DNA of 64,000 nucleotides from Synechococcus sp. CBW1107 (lineage in GTDB: Bacteria > Cyanobacteriota > Cyanobacteriia > PCC-6307 > Cyanobiaceae): assembly GCF_015841355.1 (NCBI RefSeq), contig NZ_CP064908.1, forward strand, positions 1,488,001 through 1,552,000. The letters are read 5' to 3'. Numbering within the stretch: the stretch's first letter is position 1; each line of letters begins with the position of its first letter. The notes under the pieces were generated by a model, which saw only the letters and a program-made list of their open reading frames with translations, was not told the DNA's origin and did not search any database. The translations under genes were made by a program, and so were the position numbers. Shown here piece after piece: positions 10,442-30,913 of the stretch.

Positions 10442-12016
10442 TCACTCGCCAGGGATCGCCAGCCCCAACTGCTTCCGCAACTCCGCCGCGTCGATCACCC
10501 CCCGCTCATGCAGCACCAGCCACTCCTGCACCGAGGGCTCGGGTTTGCACGCTGGCTGCGGCGGCACCAGTGGGCAGATCTCCACCGTGCAGACCTCGGC
10601 ACCTGTGAGCTTCTCGCCGGTGAGCCGGGTCCACTGCTGCAGCAGGGTGCTGAGCATCGAACGTTTCTGACCCGCCAACGACTGCAGCACCGCAAAGCTC
10701 TGGCCGGCAGTGAGCGAAATCTCCAGCTCGGTGCGGGCCGGGCCGTGGCCGCCTGCAGGGATCAGGGCGTCACGCCGCATCGCCTCCTCCAGCTGCAGCA
10801 GGTAGCCGCGGTGCTCCGCCAGTGAGCGGGCTTCTATTTCGACCCACTGGAACTTGGCTCCCTCGGGCAGATCCATGAAGGAGGAGGTGGAGAGCACCAG
10901 CCGCTGCGGACGCTGACCTTCTGCGCCGGTCCCTGCAGCAGAGCCGAGGGCGCCGTCACTGCGCCGGAAGCCGTAGGCATCCACCAGCCCTGTGCGCACG
11001 CCCACCGGCAGGGCCGTGCGGGAGAGGAGGTCTTCGTAGTCGCTGCGGCAGCGGTAGTGGTTGAGGTACTGATGGGCCAGGCCCAGGTGGGGCAGATCGC
11101 CCTCGCCAAAGGCGGTGCCATCCACCGAGTACCAAAGGGCCGGCAGGTCAAAGCGCTGGGGCAGCAGCGAAGGCTCACCCACAGGCACCACGTCGTAGCC
11201 ATCGACAGCGCCGGGGTTGGGGTTGGCCTGCCAGCTGCGCAGCACCAGGCCGTCATCCGTCACCGAGAGGCTGCGGTACAGCCAGGCCGCCGGATCCGGT
11301 ACCAGCCCGCCGTGGGCGTCGAGCACCACCATGGGCACCGCTGCATTGCCACTGGCGAACCGGGGAGGCAGGGCCTGGCGGCGCGGTTCGCGCCAGACGA
11401 TCTCCACCGGCCCCGATGCCGGGGCACCGGTGGCGCCGTCGGTGGGCAGGCGCCAGTTGAGCAGGTCTCCCCGGGGCACCAGCTGCAACCGCGGCAACGA
11501 GAGCCGGTCGCCCTTGGCCAGGGCTTCCAGTCGATCCCCTTCTGAGGGCCAGCGGTGCTGGGGCGGCAGCTGCAGGATCAGGCAGCCGCCATCCCGCAGG
11601 GTGAGCAGGTCGGCCAGGAACAGGAACACCCCCAGGTCAGTTCCCTGGCCGTCCACATCGGTGGCCACCCGGCTGAGGGAATCAGGCAGCTGCTGCCAGG
11701 CCAGCCGCGACAGCATCCCGGCGTAGGTGCGCAGGGCGTCGCGGTAGAAGCCGGTGGGCCGAGCCGCTTCCAGGCGCTTGAGGTAGCAGGACTCGGGCTC
11801 CTCGATGCCGCGGGGCAGATACACCGGCCGGCGGCTGGTGCCGTCAGGGAGCTCCAGCAGGGTCCAGCAGTCGTAGACCAACTGCAAGCGGTCACTCAGG
11901 CCGCTGAGGGTTGGGTGCTCCAGCCAGGGGGGCTGAGCTGGGGCGTGGGGCTGCGTCTCTTGTGGGGAGGAGGGGCTGCGGGGGGTAGTTGTCCTGCGTC
12001 GGCGGGTGGTGGGCAC
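10442..12016 (-). CDS. Phage portal protein (DUF4055-like)
   Basis: The 524-residue protein resembles the DUF4055 group of portal proteins. It has the early LPRGIEEPESCYLKRLEAAR and GFYRDALRTYAGMLSR segments, a central beta-rich region, then LGLAHQYLNHYRCRSDYEDLL and the helical stem segment AEHRGYLLQLEEAMRRDAL. Portals form the 12-subunit ring through which DNA enters the head. The N-terminal 30 residues are basic and low in complexity. The gene follows terminase in the late-gene direction, but a low-GC plus-strand gene and its flanks lie between them. Confidence 0.8.
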   Translation of the reverse strand: MPTTRRRRTTTPRSPSSPQETQPHAPAQPPWLEHPTLSGLSDRLQLVYDCWTLLELPDGTSRRPVYLPRGIEEPESCYLKRLEAARPTGFYRDALRTYAGMLSRLAWQQLPDSLSRVATDVDGQGTDLGVFLFLADLLTLRDGGCLILQLPPQHRWPSEGDRLEALAKGDRLSLPRLQLVPRGDLLNWRLPTDGATGAPASGPVEIVWREPRRQALPPRFASGNAAVPMVVLDAHGGLVPDPAAWLYRSLSVTDDGLVLRSWQANPNPGAVDGYDVVPVGEPSLLPQRFDLPALWYSVDGTAFGEGDLPHLGLAHQYLNHYRCRSDYEDLLSRTALPVGVRTGLVDAYGFRRSDGALGSAAGTGAEGQRPQRLVLSTSSFMDLPEGAKFQWVEIEARSLAEHRGYLLQLEEAMRRDALIPAGGHGPARTELEISLTAGQSFAVLQSLAGQKRSMLSTLLQQWTRLTGEKLTGAEVCTVEICPLVPPQPACKPEPSVQEWLVLHERGVIDAAELRKQLGLAIPGE

Positions 12017-12139
12017 TGGCTGCTGCTTGTGGCCACATCTCTTGCCAGTGGCAGCAATGAACGGCAGGAAGGACCATGCAGGATCGGCATGGATTCGGTC
12101 AAGGCGTCAGAACAAGCAGGGTGATCAGAGCAGGGCTTT

Positions 12140-12156
12140 GCGTTCTTATGTGGGTC
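12140..12156 (+). repeat. Direct repeat copy 1
   Basis: GCGTTCTTATGTGGGTC differs at one base from the copy at 12240-12256. Confidence 0.8.
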
Positions 12157-12239
12157 CGGTGAAGATCCACGCGAGATGAGCTCCCGGGACAGGATTGACT
12201 GCCGTGCAGCCGGCCTAAGCTTCTACTTTTGATGGCTAC

Positions 12240-12256
12240 GCGTTCTTATGTGGATC
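12240..12256 (+). repeat. Direct repeat copy 2
   Basis: GCGTTCTTATGTGGATC matches copy 1 at 16 of 17 bases, 100 bp away. It lies about 90 bp before the start of the low-GC gene and may be a regulatory site or the scar of a cassette insertion. Confidence 0.8.
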
Positions 12257-12346
12257 ACGAAGCGGCGGGCTATTTCTTGGTAAAGGCCCGCTCATTTAGT
12301 ATTAGATAGCGAACTCAAAGCACTTTAGGCCACAATTCCTAAGCAC

Positions 12347-13069
12347 ATGTCAAATTCGACGCCTCTCGCGGATTTTCTTGACGACCCAAAGAACTCAACC
12401 TCGCGTGAGCGCCTGCTCGCTCATCGACTGATCTATGAGTTAAAGCTTGCATCCGCGCGCGCTGGCGTCGATCTCCGAGTCTACGAACCCGATGTTGACC
12501 GAGATGGCTTTGACCTAGTTCTAGAATCTGAGGACGCGCTTCGCAAGGTTCAAACTAAGGTTGTGCAGCAGGATGCAACTACTAATTCTTGGTGCATTCA
12601 CAAGGGATTTCTGCGACCGGACCCGTGGTTTTCTGAGCATCACGGACTGCATCCTACGGTCGCTGGGGCCGGAATGAACGGTGCGATTCTAGTGATGGAC
12701 TTGGCATATCCTCACGATGAATTGCAGGTGACATACCGGTACTTCGACATGTTTGTCCTTACGGCGCGCGAACTCGCGCTGGCTCCATCTGGAGCCGCGA
12801 ATGAGAAGAAGATCCTTCCATTCCTCAGCGAGCTCTCCGCAGATCCGCTTCGCGGCCGGATCTCTGTGCCTTCTTGGATGTTTGTGCGTGTGAAAGACAC
12901 TGACGCACTGCTTTCACTTCTGGGGATGTACTCACTCAGAGGCACGCATTGGCAGCATATATTGAGGAATGCCGCAGCCTCCTATCGGGGCTTGCCCGAC
13001 GCCCAGGGCGAGTATCAGGGATGGCATCGAGCAGCTGAGGAGGAAATCGCCTCATTGACCTTGTTGTGA
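12347..13069 (+). CDS. Low-GC PD-(D/E)XK-like nuclease, prophage cargo and possible defence gene
   Basis: This 240-residue protein has the core of a restriction-endonuclease-like fold. A helix contains Glu31 (LLAHRLIYELKLA). GFDLVLE with Asp56 follows, then VQTK with Gln69 and Lys71, matching D-x(n)-(E/Q)-x-K. The rest has no recognised family. Composition is clearly unlike the neighbours: bases 12541-12600 are 26/60 G+C, while the portal gene is far richer. It is on the plus strand between minus-strand late genes, with a pair of 17-bp direct repeats upstream. Orphan nucleases of this kind in prophages can be restriction or defence genes. No partner methylase or second subunit is visible, so the role is inferred. 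Confidence 0.65.
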   Translation: MSNSTPLADFLDDPKNSTSRERLLAHRLIYELKLASARAGVDLRVYEPDVDRDGFDLVLESEDALRKVQTKVVQQDATTNSWCIHKGFLRPDPWFSEHHGLHPTVAGAGMNGAILVMDLAYPHDELQVTYRYFDMFVLTARELALAPSGAANEKKILPFLSELSADPLRGRISVPSWMFVRVKDTDALLSLLGMYSLRGTHWQHILRNAAASYRGLPDAQGEYQGWHRAAEEEIASLTLL

Positions 13070-13179
13070 GCCCTTGTTCGCAGCTGTCTAGCTTGCCGTT
13101 GCAGCTGAAGGAGTGATCAGGGACGTGTAACGAGCATTCAGGCTTCCTCGAAGGCCGCTCCGCAGCTAAACTTAGGTAT

Positions 13180-13881
13180 TCACTGAAGTGGAAAAGCAAC
13201 TACCCGGAGTGAGCACGCATCGACGATCTGAACCCACCGCTCGCAAGTAATCCCTAGTCTCTCCATCATCTCTCCCGCTCCGACTCCGGAAGTGAGCAAC
13301 CGCTGCCCCCGCGCATGAATCTCCCGCCATGTCGGCGGCACCTTCAGCAAAAATCCGTTGTCTCGCAGAAAGTGCGTGATCTCCCCATTGGCATAGGTGC
13401 GCCCGTAGGGCCGAAATGGACCCCGTGAGGGGTCGTAGCGGCGGGCCGCCTTGATCAGCCCGATCATCGCCAGCTGCAGCAGGTCCTCCTTGGGGTGAAC
13501 AGTGCGCCGAGCGAAGTTGCCGGCGATCTTCTCCGCCAGGTCCATGTGCTCCAGCGCCAGGGCATCAGCAGCGGCATGGGGCCGTACAGCTCGCTGCCGC
13601 CGGTGCCTGCAACGCATCTGCTGCTTTCCCTGAGCTCTGGGTGGGTGATGCCCCGGCGTCTGCAGGTTGATCTCCAGCTGCTGTGCCCGGGCATGGCATG
13701 CCGGCTGCCGGTGACGCCGTTGGTTGAGCATTTGAGCCACACCTGCGGCATCACCCACCAGTACAACTGTCATCGGGAGCTCCAGCTGCACAGCAGCCGG
13801 AGTCAGCACGGCAGAGGGTGGGCTCTCCACCAGGGATGGCGTGGAATCTTCCCGCACCGCGGACACCAGCGGCTTGCTCAT
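13180..13881 (-). CDS. Phage-encoded sigma-70-like factor lacking region 4
   Basis: The ATG overlaps the stop of the large terminase gene (ATGA), which fixes the start. The first 105 of 233 residues form a low-similarity extension with a basic patch near 80-100. A clear sigma region 2 follows: ALEHMDLAEKIAGNFARR, then KEDLLQLAMIGLIKAARRYD and YGRTYANGEITHFLRDNGF. PPTWREIHARGQRL and LGITCERW resemble region 3. The protein stops where region 4 (-35 recognition) would begin. The last 40 codons are lower in GC than the rest. It might direct RNA polymerase to late promoters with extended -10 elements, or it may be truncated. Confidence 0.75.
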   Translation of the reverse strand: MSKPLVSAVREDSTPSLVESPPSAVLTPAAVQLELPMTVVLVGDAAGVAQMLNQRRHRQPACHARAQQLEINLQTPGHHPPRAQGKQQMRCRHRRQRAVRPHAAADALALEHMDLAEKIAGNFARRTVHPKEDLLQLAMIGLIKAARRYDPSRGPFRPYGRTYANGEITHFLRDNGFLLKVPPTWREIHARGQRLLTSGVGAGEMMERLGITCERWVQIVDACSLRVVAFPLQ

Positions 13882-15509
13882 CGGCTCACCAGCAGTGGCG
13901 TCACCACCGGCTGGATGCCCTGGGCCTTCCAGTAGCGGCCCTCCAGCCACAGGGCGCCGTGGCAGAAGGCATCCACCAAGTCCTTGCTGCCCTTGGGGAA
14001 GCGGATCGCTTCTTCCACCAGCGGCTGGGCGCGGTGGTGAAAGCGGATTTGACCTGCTTCCACCAAGGGGGCGACGGCATGGGCGCGGGTTTCCTTGCTG
14101 CCGCGGGCCGTGATCGGCAACATTCCCGGCACGCGGCGCCGGAGCGTCTGCAGCACCGCCGGGCCGTTGGCGGCGTCCTCGATCAGCACGGCATGGGGGC
14201 GCAGACCCTGCTGCTCCAGCGCCTCCAGGCAGCCCAGTAGGAAGCGGATCACCTCCGGCAGGCCAAAGCGGTGCCGTGTGGCCCACAGCACCTCGATCTC
14301 CAACGCCTGCGGGTTCTGGTGCCCCTGTGGTTCACCCGATTGGGGGATGCCATTCCGGGCTGGTGGTGCCAACAGCCCGGCCAGGCAGAAGCCGCAGTAG
14401 TCGCTCTCCGCCTCCCCCTTGAAGCTCAGGTCACAAGAGAGAGCCAGCAGGGCGTACGGGCGCTGGCTGCCGTCCTCGCGAGGGAAGGACGGCCGGATCC
14501 ACTCGCGCAGGAAGATCGATCCGCTCGCCGGGCTGGGCCGCTGCTGATAGAGCGCCGCCCACCAGTAGGCACCGAGGCGGGCGCGGATCTTGAGCAGTTC
14601 CGGCAGGGGGAACCTCTCCGGGCAAAGCGCCTCGCCCGCCTGTCGCCAGTCGGGGATCAGGGTGCAGCTGGGCGGCAGCTTGGGCCGTTCGGCCGGGTCC
14701 TCGGCGATCGCGGGCAGATCAAGCACGGTCCACTGCTGCGGCGCCTCGCCGAGCTCCTGCTCGTACAACCAGCCGATCACGTCCTGGTGGTCCCAGCGGG
14801 TGAGCACCACCACCTGGGCCGAGAGATTCGGCTGCTCCCTGCCGTCCGGTCCCAGCACCGAGGCCGGTTCGGCGCGGGTGAGCCACACCGAGCGCAGCCA
14901 GTCGATCAGCTTCTGGCGCAGCGCAGGGCTGGCCGCATCACCGGGGCCCTTGTAGGGGTCGTCGATGATCCCCAAGCTGTAGCCCTTGCCCGTGAACGGG
15001 CCATCCACACCAGCAGCAATGCAGCCACCGCGCTGGCGGGTCAGCCAGTTGCCCACAGCAGACGAGTCGCGGGCCAGCAGGTGGCCCGTCACCCGGTAAA
15101 AGTGGCGCGCTTCTCTGGAGTGGGCGTAGGCCAGCTCAGCTGAGTACGAGGCGATCGCCGAGAAGAGGTGCGGGTAGCGCTGCAGGAAGTAGGCCGGGAA
15201 CAGCTTGGACACCAGGAGGCTTTTCCCGAGCCGGGGCGGACAGGTGACGATCAAGCGGCTCAGCTGGCCATCGGCGACGGCCTGGAGCAGCTCGATCAGT
15301 TGCTCGGCCCAGCGGTGGAAGCCGTAGCGGGGGTAGGCCTCGGCAATGAAGCTACGCAGGCTCTGGGGCTCTGCTGGCTCGGCTGCCATGGCCATGGGGA
15401 GGTGCAGCAGGCCGCTGTCACCCCAGGGGTCGAGCGCAGGCAGCAGCAGACCGCCGCTGTCTGCGGCAGGACGCTGCACAAGGGCCGTAGGTGAAGGAGC
15501 GCAGGTCAT
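13878..15509 (-). CDS. Phage terminase large subunit
   Basis: The 543-residue protein is the packaging ATPase-nuclease. Residues near 95 carry Walker A (CPPRLGKSLLVSKLF). Walker B follows as LGIIDDPYKG, and VVVLTRWDHQDVIGWLYE matches the coupling motif common in this family. The C-terminal half has the RNase H-like nuclease, with ALSCDLSFKGEAESDY as first acidic motif, LIEDAANG in the middle and KDLVDAFCHGALW near the end. The ATG overlaps the stop of the small subunit gene as ATGA, and its own stop overlaps the sigma gene start the same way. The three products are therefore probably translationally coupled. Confidence 0.92.
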   Translation of the reverse strand: MTCAPSPTALVQRPAADSGGLLLPALDPWGDSGLLHLPMAMAAEPAEPQSLRSFIAEAYPRYGFHRWAEQLIELLQAVADGQLSRLIVTCPPRLGKSLLVSKLFPAYFLQRYPHLFSAIASYSAELAYAHSREARHFYRVTGHLLARDSSAVGNWLTRQRGGCIAAGVDGPFTGKGYSLGIIDDPYKGPGDAASPALRQKLIDWLRSVWLTRAEPASVLGPDGREQPNLSAQVVVLTRWDHQDVIGWLYEQELGEAPQQWTVLDLPAIAEDPAERPKLPPSCTLIPDWRQAGEALCPERFPLPELLKIRARLGAYWWAALYQQRPSPASGSIFLREWIRPSFPREDGSQRPYALLALSCDLSFKGEAESDYCGFCLAGLLAPPARNGIPQSGEPQGHQNPQALEIEVLWATRHRFGLPEVIRFLLGCLEALEQQGLRPHAVLIEDAANGPAVLQTLRRRVPGMLPITARGSKETRAHAVAPLVEAGQIRFHHRAQPLVEEAIRFPKGSKDLVDAFCHGALWLEGRYWKAQGIQPVVTPLLVSR

Positions 15510-16027
15510 GCCCGTGGCTCCGGCGGCTTGATTGGCGCGCGTAGCAGCCCTCCGATCTCGGCGATCACCCGGAAGGCGCCGACGGCTGCCGAAAACTGCT
15601 CGGCGTCCATGGCCCGGCGGGCGCACTCATTGAGGGCAAAAATCTGCTCGGCCTGGTGGCGGCGCCGGTCGGTGATCAGCTCCTCCACCATCCGCTCGCG
15701 GGCGAGGTCGAGGTAGCGATTGATCGTTTTGATGTTGTTCACCCCCCAGCTCTCGCCCGCTTTCGCCCTGATTTCCACCAAAGGAAGCCGCTGCGCGATC
15801 CAGAGCTGCGCTTCTGCAATGCGCCGCTCCACCTCCCCGGCAGTGGCCCTGGGGGTCTGGGCGTGATGGGGTGAACGCCGTGGCGGGTTGGTCTGGCTGA
15901 TCGGCCGGCTCGGGTCCACCGCCACCGGTTCCCACACCGCTTCTCCATCGGAGTCCTGCTCAGCCGGTGCGAAGCGCAGCTCCTCTACCGGATCAGCAGC
16001 GGCCTGGTTGGGAGCGCGCAGCGACAT
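15506..16027 (-). CDS. Phage terminase small subunit (probable)
   Basis: The 173-residue protein precedes the large terminase gene and overlaps it by 4 bp. It has an acidic N-terminal region followed by a helical domain (AEVERRIAEAQLWIAQRLPL-like segment, then EIRAKAGESWGVNNIKTINR) that resembles the helix-turn-helix DNA-recognition part of small terminases. A helical oligomerisation region and a Pro-rich end follow. Assignment rests on position, size and this motif. It would recognise phage DNA and load the packaging motor. Confidence 0.75.
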   Translation of the reverse strand: MSLRAPNQAAADPVEELRFAPAEQDSDGEAVWEPVAVDPSRPISQTNPPRRSPHHAQTPRATAGEVERRIAEAQLWIAQRLPLVEIRAKAGESWGVNNIKTINRYLDLARERMVEELITDRRRHQAEQIFALNECARRAMDAEQFSAAVGAFRVIAEIGGLLRAPIKPPEPRA

Positions 16028-28715: not shown

Positions 28716-29435
28716 ATGAAGACCAATAGAGCCTTTGTGGTAGCGCTTACCTGTTTTCAGCTGATGCTGCCGTTTGCGGCGGCTGCCAACCCTTCGGTCA
28801 CGAGTGGCGAGGTTGTCGACTACTTTGACCTGAATATTAGAGACTACAAGGCAAAATCGCTGCCTTTTTCCAAGGTCCTTGCTTCGGGGGAGACGGGTGG
28901 TAATGAAAAAGTTCTTTTCGACCAGGCTTATCGTGGCAGGCTTTGCTTTATTTCCTGCCACTTCTATGATGGCTACACGTCAAGATGGAGCGGGTACTAC
29001 CTGGATCTGCAGCCTTATGAAAGCACGTGCTTTGCGCTGGCTGGGGGCTGCAACACCATCACGTTTCCCAGGCCTGACTCTCGCATAAAAATTAGTGTCG
29101 GGAGCCAGGAGTATGAGCTGTTGATGGTCGATGAAAGTCGCTACAGATATTACTTGCCGTTGGCAGCAAGGCAGGCTATCTCGTCAAGCGAAACCGCTGC
29201 TGTTACCATCAAGACGACATGGGACAAGTATCGCGAGTACAGGGTTGGCGATAAATCGAGAAGATTGCTTGGTGCCGTGCTCAACCGCAATAATGAGCTT
29301 GCAACTCCGGATTCAGGTGTGCCTGCAGCTTTAAGTATCGAAGAGAAACTCAATGAGCTGAAGAGGCTCAGAGAGAAAGGGCTGATTGATGAGAGCGAGT
29401 ATAATCGGCTTAGGCAAAAAGCCCTTGGTCTCTAA
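28716..29435 (+). CDS. Secreted protein with SHOCT tail, probable lysogenic cargo
   Basis: The 239-residue protein has a signal peptide (hydrophobic VALTCFQLMLPFAAAA with cleavage likely after AAA). An unrecognised beta-rich domain with four Cys follows, and then a SHOCT motif in the last 30 residues (SIEEKLNELKRLREKGLIDE then SEYNRLRQKALG). Composition is lower in GC than phage core genes (32 of 60 bases in 29221-29280). It lies between the excisionase-like gene and the integrase gene at the end of the prophage, the usual site for genes that change the lysogen. Partner and function are unknown. Confidence 0.7.
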   Translation: MKTNRAFVVALTCFQLMLPFAAAANPSVTSGEVVDYFDLNIRDYKAKSLPFSKVLASGETGGNEKVLFDQAYRGRLCFISCHFYDGYTSRWSGYYLDLQPYESTCFALAGGCNTITFPRPDSRIKISVGSQEYELLMVDESRYRYYLPLAARQAISSSETAAVTIKTTWDKYREYRVGDKSRRLLGAVLNRNNELATPDSGVPAALSIEEKLNELKRLREKGLIDESEYNRLRQKALGL

Positions 29436-29452: not shown

Positions 29453-30715
29453 TTATGCCGCTGAGCTCGACTCGTCGACGCTAAAGCGGCTTGCGGCCTT
29501 GGCAAACGCGTCATCCACCACATCATCCCCGCACCAGCGGCTGTAGGCCACCAGGTGGGTCTGGACGCTATGGCCCATGGCCGCGGCCACCACCTTGGGT
29601 GGTAGATCGCAGATCACGTGGGCGCGGTGGGCGTAGCCGTGCCGGCAGGAGTAGGGCACGAGCTTCTCGCCCTTGGCTTCGTACTCCTGACGCAGCTGGT
29701 TCCAGAGAGGGCGCCGGTGCAGGTACTGCCTGATGTCGTTGCCGCAGAAGCCGGAACGCATCGGAGGGAGATCGGCAGGGCAGAACTGGTCGGCGAGCTT
29801 CCAGTCGGCTGCCCAGTCATCGCAGGGCAGCAGCCGCAGGGCTCGAGGCTTGGTCTTGCCGCGGGATGCCACCTTTTCATAGGTGCACCACAGGCGCCCA
29901 TCGCGCAGCTGCAGGTGCTGAAGCTCCTCGGGGCGCAATCCATAGGCGGCCATCAGCTGGAAAGCGAGTCGCCAACGCGGGTCGGGCAGCGCCCGTACCA
30001 ACGCCAGGATGTGGCCCACTTCGATGGGGGTGGTAATCGCTTTCGCGGAGCGTGACCGCCCCACGAAGGAGCTCAGGTCGGTTGGCGGCTCCCACCTGGT
30101 TGCTGCGAGTTCGCCCTGGGCCACCGCCCAGCGGAGCAGGGCCGAGGTGGCCTGCATCTGAATCTGCCGGGTGCGACCCCCGGGCTTGTCGGCCCAGTGC
30201 AGGGTGAGCCGATCCAGCAGCAGGGTGGCGCTTTGGGGCGGCTGACGGCTGACGAAGGCATCCAGCACATGCTTCATGTGGTGGCGATGCACCCTGGTCC
30301 AGGTCGACTCCTTGATCTCACCAGTGCGGATTTTGTACTCGCGATACCGTTCGATCAGTGCATTCCAGTCTGTTTGTTGCTCAGGATTTGCCTTTTGGGT
30401 GTCAGCAGTCCTGGTATCTGATTCGCTTGCTGATGTATAGGTGATTGTCTTTGCTGCCTGTTCTGGTTCTATTCCGCTGCTGAAGTCGTCATAGATCTTG
30501 CAAACAGCTGCGCCAATCTTCTTGGCGTTGTCGAAATGCCAGGGGATCGGAAGTTGTATTTGACGCCGCTTACCGCCGCCCGCTTTGGCGGTGATGTTGA
30601 GCCTGGCGAAGCCTCGGTGCTCTGTGAGCGCCCAGCCCCTTGGACATCCCTTGCGGGACAAGGCGTGAGCGGTTTCGACGCGGATGGCGATCTCCCAGGG
30701 GGCTGCCTCAGCCAT
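29453..30715 (-). CDS. int: Tyrosine recombinase, phage integrase
   Basis: The 420-residue protein has an N-terminal arm-binding region, a helical core-binding domain (about 115-205) and the catalytic domain. Catalytic Arg261 is in AAYGLRPEELQ, a Lys follows in the ASRGKTKPRALRLLP strand, box II appears as YSCRHGYAHR (Arg358), the later His is in AAMGHSVQTH, and nucleophile Tyr391 is in LVAYSRW. The first box II residue is Tyr rather than the usual His. The gene lies 127 bp from the 3' end of tRNA-Gly(CCC), the probable attachment site. Confidence 0.92.
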   Translation of the reverse strand: MAEAAPWEIAIRVETAHALSRKGCPRGWALTEHRGFARLNITAKAGGGKRRQIQLPIPWHFDNAKKIGAAVCKIYDDFSSGIEPEQAAKTITYTSASESDTRTADTQKANPEQQTDWNALIERYREYKIRTGEIKESTWTRVHRHHMKHVLDAFVSRQPPQSATLLLDRLTLHWADKPGGRTRQIQMQATSALLRWAVAQGELAATRWEPPTDLSSFVGRSRSAKAITTPIEVGHILALVRALPDPRWRLAFQLMAAYGLRPEELQHLQLRDGRLWCTYEKVASRGKTKPRALRLLPCDDWAADWKLADQFCPADLPPMRSGFCGNDIRQYLHRRPLWNQLRQEYEAKGEKLVPYSCRHGYAHRAHVICDLPPKVVAAAMGHSVQTHLVAYSRWCGDDVVDDAFAKAASRFSVDESSSAA

Positions 30716-30815: not shown

Positions 30816-30841
30816 GGGGGATTTCTCAGTCCTGGACTAGA

Positions 30842-30913
30842 AGCGGGTGACCGGACTCGAACCGGCGACGTTCAGCTTGGGAAGCTGACATTCTACCACT
30901 GAATTACACCCGC
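30842..30913 (-). tRNA. tRNA-Gly (anticodon CCC)
   Basis: The minus strand folds as a full cloverleaf of 72 bases. The acceptor stem GCGGGTG/CACCCGC has 7 pairs, with T as discriminator. The D arm is ATTC-loop-GAAT. The anticodon stem is TCAGC/GCTGA around the loop TTCCCAA (anticodon CCC). The T arm has loop TTCGAAT. CCA is not encoded. The 3' end borders the prophage. Confidence 0.95.

Follow-up and report, generated by a model that had tools for sequence, protein, structure and literature searches.

Why does a single gene of low GC content, read against its neighbors and encoding a nuclease-like protein, lie among the late genes of a cyanobacterial prophage? The gene was first singled out in a preliminary description of the window, by which we mean the whole analyzed stretch of 64,000 nucleotides from Synechococcus sp. 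CBW1107 (contig NZ_CP064908.1, positions 1,488,001 to 1,552,000). That description took the gene for a lone insertion into phage late genes and for a possible new single-gene defense system carried as prophage cargo. The gene and the phage features that frame it are the following, in window coordinates.

10442 to 12016, minus strand: portal protein gene (phrog_145, E 1.6e-18)
12134 to 12156 and 12234 to 12256, no strand assigned: two 23-nt direct repeats in the portal leader, part of the phage flank and not of the cargo
12347 to 13069, plus strand: cargo gene for a putative PD-(D/E)XK-like nuclease of 240 aa, an intact ORF with an ATG start
13180 to 13866, minus strand: sigma-factor-like phage gene, which borders the cargo slot (phrog_351, E 1.5e-18)
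13878 to 15626, minus strand: terminase large subunit gene, terL (phrog_38, E 6.7e-74)
29453 to 30715, minus strand: prophage integrase gene (phrog_1, E 2.9e-20), which adjoins tRNA-Gly
30840 to 30886, no strand assigned: prophage attachment site in tRNA-Gly (30842 to 30913), a 47-nt direct repeat

The cargo gene lies between the sigma-like gene and the portal gene, both of which, like terL, are on the opposite strand. It coincides with a regional dip in GC content, with a GC of 0.55 and a GC3 of 0.57, compared with 0.68-0.70 and 0.83-0.85, respectively, for terL, portal, and the next late gene. The difference in strand and composition reported in the preliminary description was thereby confirmed. 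No sigma-70-type promoter was found in the region from 12000 to 13400. The two repeats in the portal leader are 100 bp apart, and in part of the other loci similar motifs occur ~240 and/or 140 nt before portal; these repeats are possibly a late-promoter element.

The assignment of the gene to a prophage as cargo was likewise upheld. The host genome, which we searched as one contig of 3.2 Mb (G000, contig C1), contains another copy of the attachment repeat at genome position 1470081 (L016), 17.9 kb to the left of the window, and the two 47-nt repeats bound a prophage of ~48.8 kb. The best-ranked phage records for its terL were Synechococcus phages with 37% identity. A further copy of the 47-nt repeat lies at genome position 1455868 (L015), 14 kb from the prophage on its left side, which suggests that a second element is present in tandem.

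To place the insertion site in a broader context, we compared the terL-portal interval across relatives. Relatives of terL (E 1e-30 or better) were present in 51 of 300 family genomes, and viral contigs yielded 69 terL loci, including 12 with 88-96% identity in the best segment. The comparison comprised 51 sources (40 genome stretches, 10 viral contigs, and the window), of which 46, including the window, hold both genes, while L136, L143, L148, L161, and L165 have no portal gene in the stretch. The 46 intervals are 1.4-7.6 kb long with a GC of 0.48-0.63, and phage flank accounts for ~1 kb of each, namely the sigma-like ORF (~700 nt) and a portal leader (~290 nt). Thirty intervals have a terL identity of 88-94%, and the genomes with such a terL span eight genera. 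This close group was set by list, so that L166 (terL 90%, portal 76%) was counted as divergent and L146 (88% and 76%) as close. Among the intervals listed, nearly all open with the sigma-like ORF, which is followed by differing cargo that for the most part is read against the late genes. None of the 46 intervals is empty; each carries an insert, down to the shortest (L131), which has one 132-aa ORF, and L132, which has just two ORFs of ~110 aa. In a DNA comparison, cargo nearly always differed among the 46 intervals, and the few matches between loci were a Lamassu block, the pair L133/L134, whose cargo is identical, and further stretches that in part resemble transposases. The Lamassu block is 99.7% identical between L047 and L139, one a viral contig and the other a bacterial genome. 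The cargo of the window matched only its own copies and had no DNA match in the other intervals. The gene, then, is not a lone insertion as initially proposed but occupies a conserved cargo slot, which appears to be integron derived. The idea that the same locus might recur in other prophages with different cargo held for the locus, which recurs with many defense families, and not for the gene itself.

To characterize the cargo, we collected 90 ORFs of at least 110 aa from 43 intervals (leaving out the window, L134, and L139) and dropped four by hand as doubtful (one each in L132, L151, L154, and L160), leaving 86 in two sets. At E 1e-5, set A4 (42 ORFs) matched 120 PADLOC families and set A5 (44 ORFs) matched 145, counts that overstate the number of systems because many ATPase models overlap. 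Among the 25 families listed for A4 were LmuA, LmuB, LmuC, IetA, IetS, HEC-06, PDC-S13, and PDC-S59, while the 25 listed for A5 included HEC-04, HEC-01A, AriA, AbiLi, GajA, and PtuA ATPases. The cargo includes known defense families, namely Lamassu, Iet, HEC-06, PARIS/OLD-like, and Mrr. Pfam searches identified GmrSD, DUF4365, ABC-3C components, HEPN, Peptidase_S8, Mrr, SIR2_2, FRG, RelA_SpoT, and trypsin-like domains, along with GTP cyclohydrolase II, transposases, and pentapeptide repeats. When 10 cargo proteins were scanned singly, 6 had a PADLOC match (L129, AriA/Old; L055, HEC-06; L130, Aga_REase; L137, PDC-S59; L140, Lit with E 7e-7; and L050, PDC-S13) and 4 had none. We describe the slot as defense-rich in a qualitative sense only, as the family tallies have no matched control region behind them.

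The sequences flanking the cargo hinted at cassette borders and hence at an integron, a device for gene capture that is known above all as a vehicle of antibiotic resistance. The host encodes an integron integrase (IntI) at C1:905398-906330 (461 bits versus a cutoff of 265); a second copy at C1:1269858-1270613 contains two stop codons. IntI was detected in 60 of 300 family genomes, and with an identical threshold none of 14 control genomes had a match. By raw counts, uncorrected for phylogeny or genome size, it was present in 32 of the 51 terL genomes versus 28 of the 249 others and in 16 of the 20 genomes with a close terL. The host chromosomal integron (C1:896001-907600; L170) has a low-GC array at ~900.1-905.1 kb on the intI strand, in which an ORF at 900136-901401 resembles a reverse transcriptase by eye.

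A repeat search next to intI revealed no attC sites, while a comparison of conserved arms did. The attC beside the host intI resembles slot sequences, with both arms present in 11 slots as sites of 85-87 nt. From these 11 slot sites, chosen by their likeness to this one host attC, we built a covariance model (R1), which covers one attC type only; a similar site of 77 nt in L155 was left out of training. The R1 alignment displays covariation, with 17 cells changed on both sides compared with a shuffled mean of 6.9, and 83% of its cells pair compared with 30-38% when slid. At E <1e-3, R1 had 23 matches (11 training sites and 12 outside training) in 18 of 49 terL stretches and no match in the other 31. 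All 19 matches that could be placed lie within the slot and share the strand of the cargo. Most of them fall between ORFs or overlap the final bases of the sigma-like gene; the four remaining matches are in portal-less stretches. Slots of relatives thus contain attC sites that can be recognized from sequence and structure. R1 had no match in 57 other phage contigs (448 kb) or in the 40 kb around the second host IntI copy (L172 and L173). Matches adjoin 7 of 29 intI genes of other genomes (flanks of up to ~1.5 kb), and three sites lie in the host integron. Among the three is the host attC that guided the choice of training sites, and a match to it is expected because these sites were selected for likeness to it; the other two, and those beside the intI genes of other genomes, are not expected from this choice.

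Two further signs of an integron were found. First, an attI-like motif lies 256-269 nt before portal with up to six mismatches in 14 of the 30 close loci, while none of the 16 divergent intervals has it at the usual distance; the associated P values are not independent since the consensus was read from the very loci scored. Independently of those loci, a similar motif occurs with up to four mismatches near 8 of 30 intI genes, 7 times at ~160-190 nt past the end of intI. Second, 5 of the 46 slots, all in the divergent group, contain 3' remnants of intI (tblastn, E 8e-10 to 8e-4). An intact intI beside attI was not found in the slots, where only these remnants appeared, and an intact gene lies elsewhere in the host genome. 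We also scored inverted repeats in two tests, in both of which shuffling was confined to the partner region, with the arm closest to the phage gene left as it was. The first was positive at P ≤0.05 for 8 of 30 loci (Fisher 0.005), and a refined attC scorer, in which L134 (a duplicate of L133) was left out and one boundary (L050) was set by hand, was positive for 7 of 29 (Fisher 2e-4). Complementarity between the cassette front and R'' was not significant in 15 hand-picked loci (P 0.12).

By comparison, then, the relatives have variable, defense-containing cargo, attC sites, attI-like sequences, and intI remnants, and the host has an IntI. On sequence grounds, the slot in many relatives appears to be an integron platform. 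The captured platform would consist of attI and the end of intI, the host chromosomal IntI would work it in trans, and the prophage lineage would in this way keep the slot loaded with interchangeable cassettes.

What does the window gene contribute to such a slot? Its product has the following feature.

12407 to 12559, plus strand: putative catalytic core, with E21 at 12407-12409, D56 at 12512-12514, and Q69-T-K71 at 12551-12559; conserved in alignments

The roles of E21, D56, Q69, and K71 are assigned by reference to PD-(D/E)XK enzymes. The residues are spaced as E21-x34-D56(GFD)-x12-Q69-T-K71, in agreement with the pattern E...D-xn-(E/Q)xK of the catalytic residues in these enzymes, and residues 20-85 look like a PD-(D/E)XK core. 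D56, Q69, and K71 are present in all six aligned rows and E21 in five (a G in the truncated P0003), and the window protein and P0005 have all four in common. An AlphaFold model based on two sequences has a helix at 14-38 and strands at 43-51, 54-61, and 67-76, in the order of an alpha-beta-beta-beta core; with a mean pLDDT of 42, the model does not suffice to confirm this fold. The window protein matched no family in PADLOC-DB 2.0.0 up to E 10 and none in NCBIfam, and in PHROGs it matched only one weak, nameless family (E 0.056). Pfam PDDEXK_5 (PF11645) aligned with residues 40-77 (E 5e-4, 20.5 bits), below the gathering cutoff of 26.1. The core E-xn-GFD-xn-QxK named in the preliminary description is therefore present, and outside it the protein has no recognized family, as that description stated.

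Searches of a phage collection, of viral contigs (pattern based), and in a first scan of genome contigs returned no relatives of the protein, and nothing was confirmed when viral contigs were scanned with the Aeromonas relative. In five plasmid records (Massilia, Agrobacterium, Neptuniibacter, Halomonas, and Aeromonas), the similarity is confined to the N-terminal third. The Neptuniibacter copy has an integrase-SAM-like N-terminal extension (E 0.004, below the cutoff), and a Shewanella relative has an extension that is similar to it by eye. We found one full-length relative, a Phyllobacterium protein encoded in L008 (E 1e-15 among the candidates), which is 26% identical to the window protein over 194 aa, with similarity that reaches residue 191. 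Because the core is kept at this level of identity, the ORF at 12347-13069 is a real gene and not a chance reading frame. A search with P0005 of 397 genomes of the Phyllobacterium order returned its own source only.

In L008, a gene for a 216-aa partner precedes the nuclease homologue on the same strand, and the other strand has a DpdB-like gene of the DndB family (E 1e-16) and a TGT-like gene (E 3e-5, below the cutoff) that we call DpdA-like because of its position and the annotation in Agrobacterium. In Agrobacterium vitis, a 216-aa protein that is 90% identical to the L008 partner is followed by a truncated homologue, which adjoins annotated dpdA, dpdB, queC, queD, and queE, with dpdD, dpdJ, and dpdK further on. 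The Shewanella relative lies directly downstream of a type I restriction-modification operon, while the Massilia and Neptuniibacter relatives have no DNA-modification neighbors in the annotation. The L008, Agrobacterium, and Shewanella relatives thus keep company with DNA-modification defense. In Rhizobiales, the two-gene unit of a 216-aa protein and a PD-(D/E)XK-like protein that neighbors dpd genes is at L008:9348-10720 and L003:5333-6516. Distant relatives of the 216-aa protein are encoded on five Agrobacterium/Rhizobium plasmids, in which a nuclease search had no match.

The dpd cluster modifies DNA by inserting a 7-deazaguanine and targets DNA without the modification (PMC6884629). The window gene could, in consequence of where its closest homologues lie, be an orphan restriction subunit of a dpd modification-restriction island that, together with its partner, cuts unmodified DNA and is stranded here, perhaps inactive. 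The position of both the L008 homologue and the truncated Agrobacterium copy behind the 216-aa partner, next to dpdA- and dpdB-type genes, fits this explanation, which we nevertheless consider unlikely. A DpdA-like protein and the 216-aa partner were both absent in searches of the host genome, while the same searches found both in the Phyllobacterium genome G727, which served as a positive control; moreover, a nuclease directed against unmodified DNA would be lethal in this host if active. In a PHROGs scan of the ten neighboring genes, three of which had no match at all, no methylase was found either, in line with the earlier observation that no methylase or partner is adjacent. The proposal of a single-gene system accordingly stands for this copy alone: the full-length and truncated relatives sit with a partner and DNA-modification genes, so that "single-gene" is a property of this copy and not of the family.

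We therefore favor, with somewhat better than even confidence, the explanation that the window gene encodes a single-gene, probably conditional nuclease that serves as interchangeable phage-defense cargo in the integron-derived slot of a cyanobacterial prophage group that is widespread. The protein would most likely be a single-chain, Mg2+-dependent PD-(D/E)XK endonuclease, made from the prophage in the lysogen, that cuts the DNA of incoming rival phages; we infer its expression, DNA cutting, target recognition, and anti-phage effect. Its specificity is most likely conditional on modified bases or another phage-specific signal, because no methylase, dpd genes, or partner was found. A modification-dependent, type IV-like mode is our first choice, and a tentative one. 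The broader proposal, that this prophage lineage has an integrase-less attI slot that is filled via the host IntI and shuttles defense genes, with the window gene as a new conditional single-chain nuclease, is one to which we give even chances.

The edges of the slot in the window bear on how the gene arrived and on whether it is still in use.

12284 to 12303, plus strand: diverged attI-like sequence at the portal-side slot edge, with 7 mismatches to the slot consensus
13086 to 13182, plus strand: candidate attC, degenerate, at the slot edge facing the sigma-like gene; scorer, fold, and covariance model did not confirm it

The attI-like sequence is 267 nt from the portal start, in the homologous place, with a P value of 0.04 for the window alone against a consensus read from scored loci. 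The candidate attC had a fold z of 0.55 and P values of 0.67 in the first inverted-repeat test and 0.21 with the refined scorer. The best match of the covariance model in the region from 12000 to 14000 overlaps the end of the ORF and, at 8.4 bits and E 0.15, falls short of an attC. Entry of the gene as a cassette is something we infer from its address and not from its own borders. The diverged attI-like edge and the lack of a confirmed attC would also suit a decaying passenger gene without present function, as would the observation that, among 399 genomes of the order and, with profile A1, 386 of the phylum (both including the host), the protein had a match in the host only. With the 240-aa frame intact and the catalytic residues kept, we regard decay as improbable.

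A still less probable origin is a freestanding homing-endonuclease-like gene. A profile of the six relatives had its best match among PDB entries in 2ost (annotated as a "putative endonuclease"; E 0.015), which we take to be I-Ssp6803I, while the window protein alone had no match to PDB sequences; PDDEXK_5 is the other best profile match. The likeness of the window protein to both is in the D-x12-QxK stretch, aligned without gaps over 42 profile positions with 2ost at an E value of only 0.015. It is thus limited to the catalytic stretch and leaves the C-terminal half unexplained, whereas the similarity to the L008 homologue runs to residue 191, and the other occupants of the slot include many defense genes. 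A role in the lytic cycle, for instance as a nuclease that degrades host DNA, is suggested by the position among packaging genes and is very improbable given the opposite strand, the different composition, and the absence of a DNA match in the other intervals.

How does the slot compare with known systems? P2 and P4 prophages have defense hotspots, in which one phage locus holds many alternative defense genes, and to our knowledge these hotspots are not integron based. The slot described here has the same pattern of one locus and many defense genes and differs in being, as we propose, integron derived. Integrons and CALINs in phage genomes have been described by Qi et al. 2023 (PMC9892861). 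The phages in that study have attC cassettes, which in one prophage of Shewanella have genes for tail, scaffolding, and terminase proteins as neighbors; here, in contrast, one position, from the sigma-like gene to portal, is loaded in 46 of 46 intervals across at least eight genera and with many defense families. In the main text of PMC9892861, no word begins with "cyano." Chromosomal and mobile integrons carry anti-phage cassettes (Darracq 2025, Kieffer 2025, and Getz 2025, as described or cited in PMC12409362 and PMC12444791), while the platform described here belongs to a prophage, showed no intact intI at the slot, and would depend on the integrase of the host. Integrons have been described in Cyanobacteria (PMC8618304 and PMC8352920), and a Synechococcus sp. 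appears in figure legends of PMC3108266. We found no report of an integron-derived defense slot in cyanobacterial prophages in the open-access literature, a scope that leaves subscription papers mostly outside. If correct, our proposal would join integrons in phages with integron cassettes that defend against phages and would provide a route for defense genes between chromosomal integrons and phages. Each lysogen would be equipped with a changeable weapon, of which the window gene would be one. The slot would also be a place to find defense genes without prior knowledge, its nameless genes being candidates by address.

Another low-GC gene (28716-29435; GC 0.50; 239 aa) lies near the prophage integrase gene. 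Additional terL copies are located in the host genome at G000:C1:853768-855393, with an R1 attC match downstream (L143), and at 3107570-3109222, with slot cargo of its own (L162).
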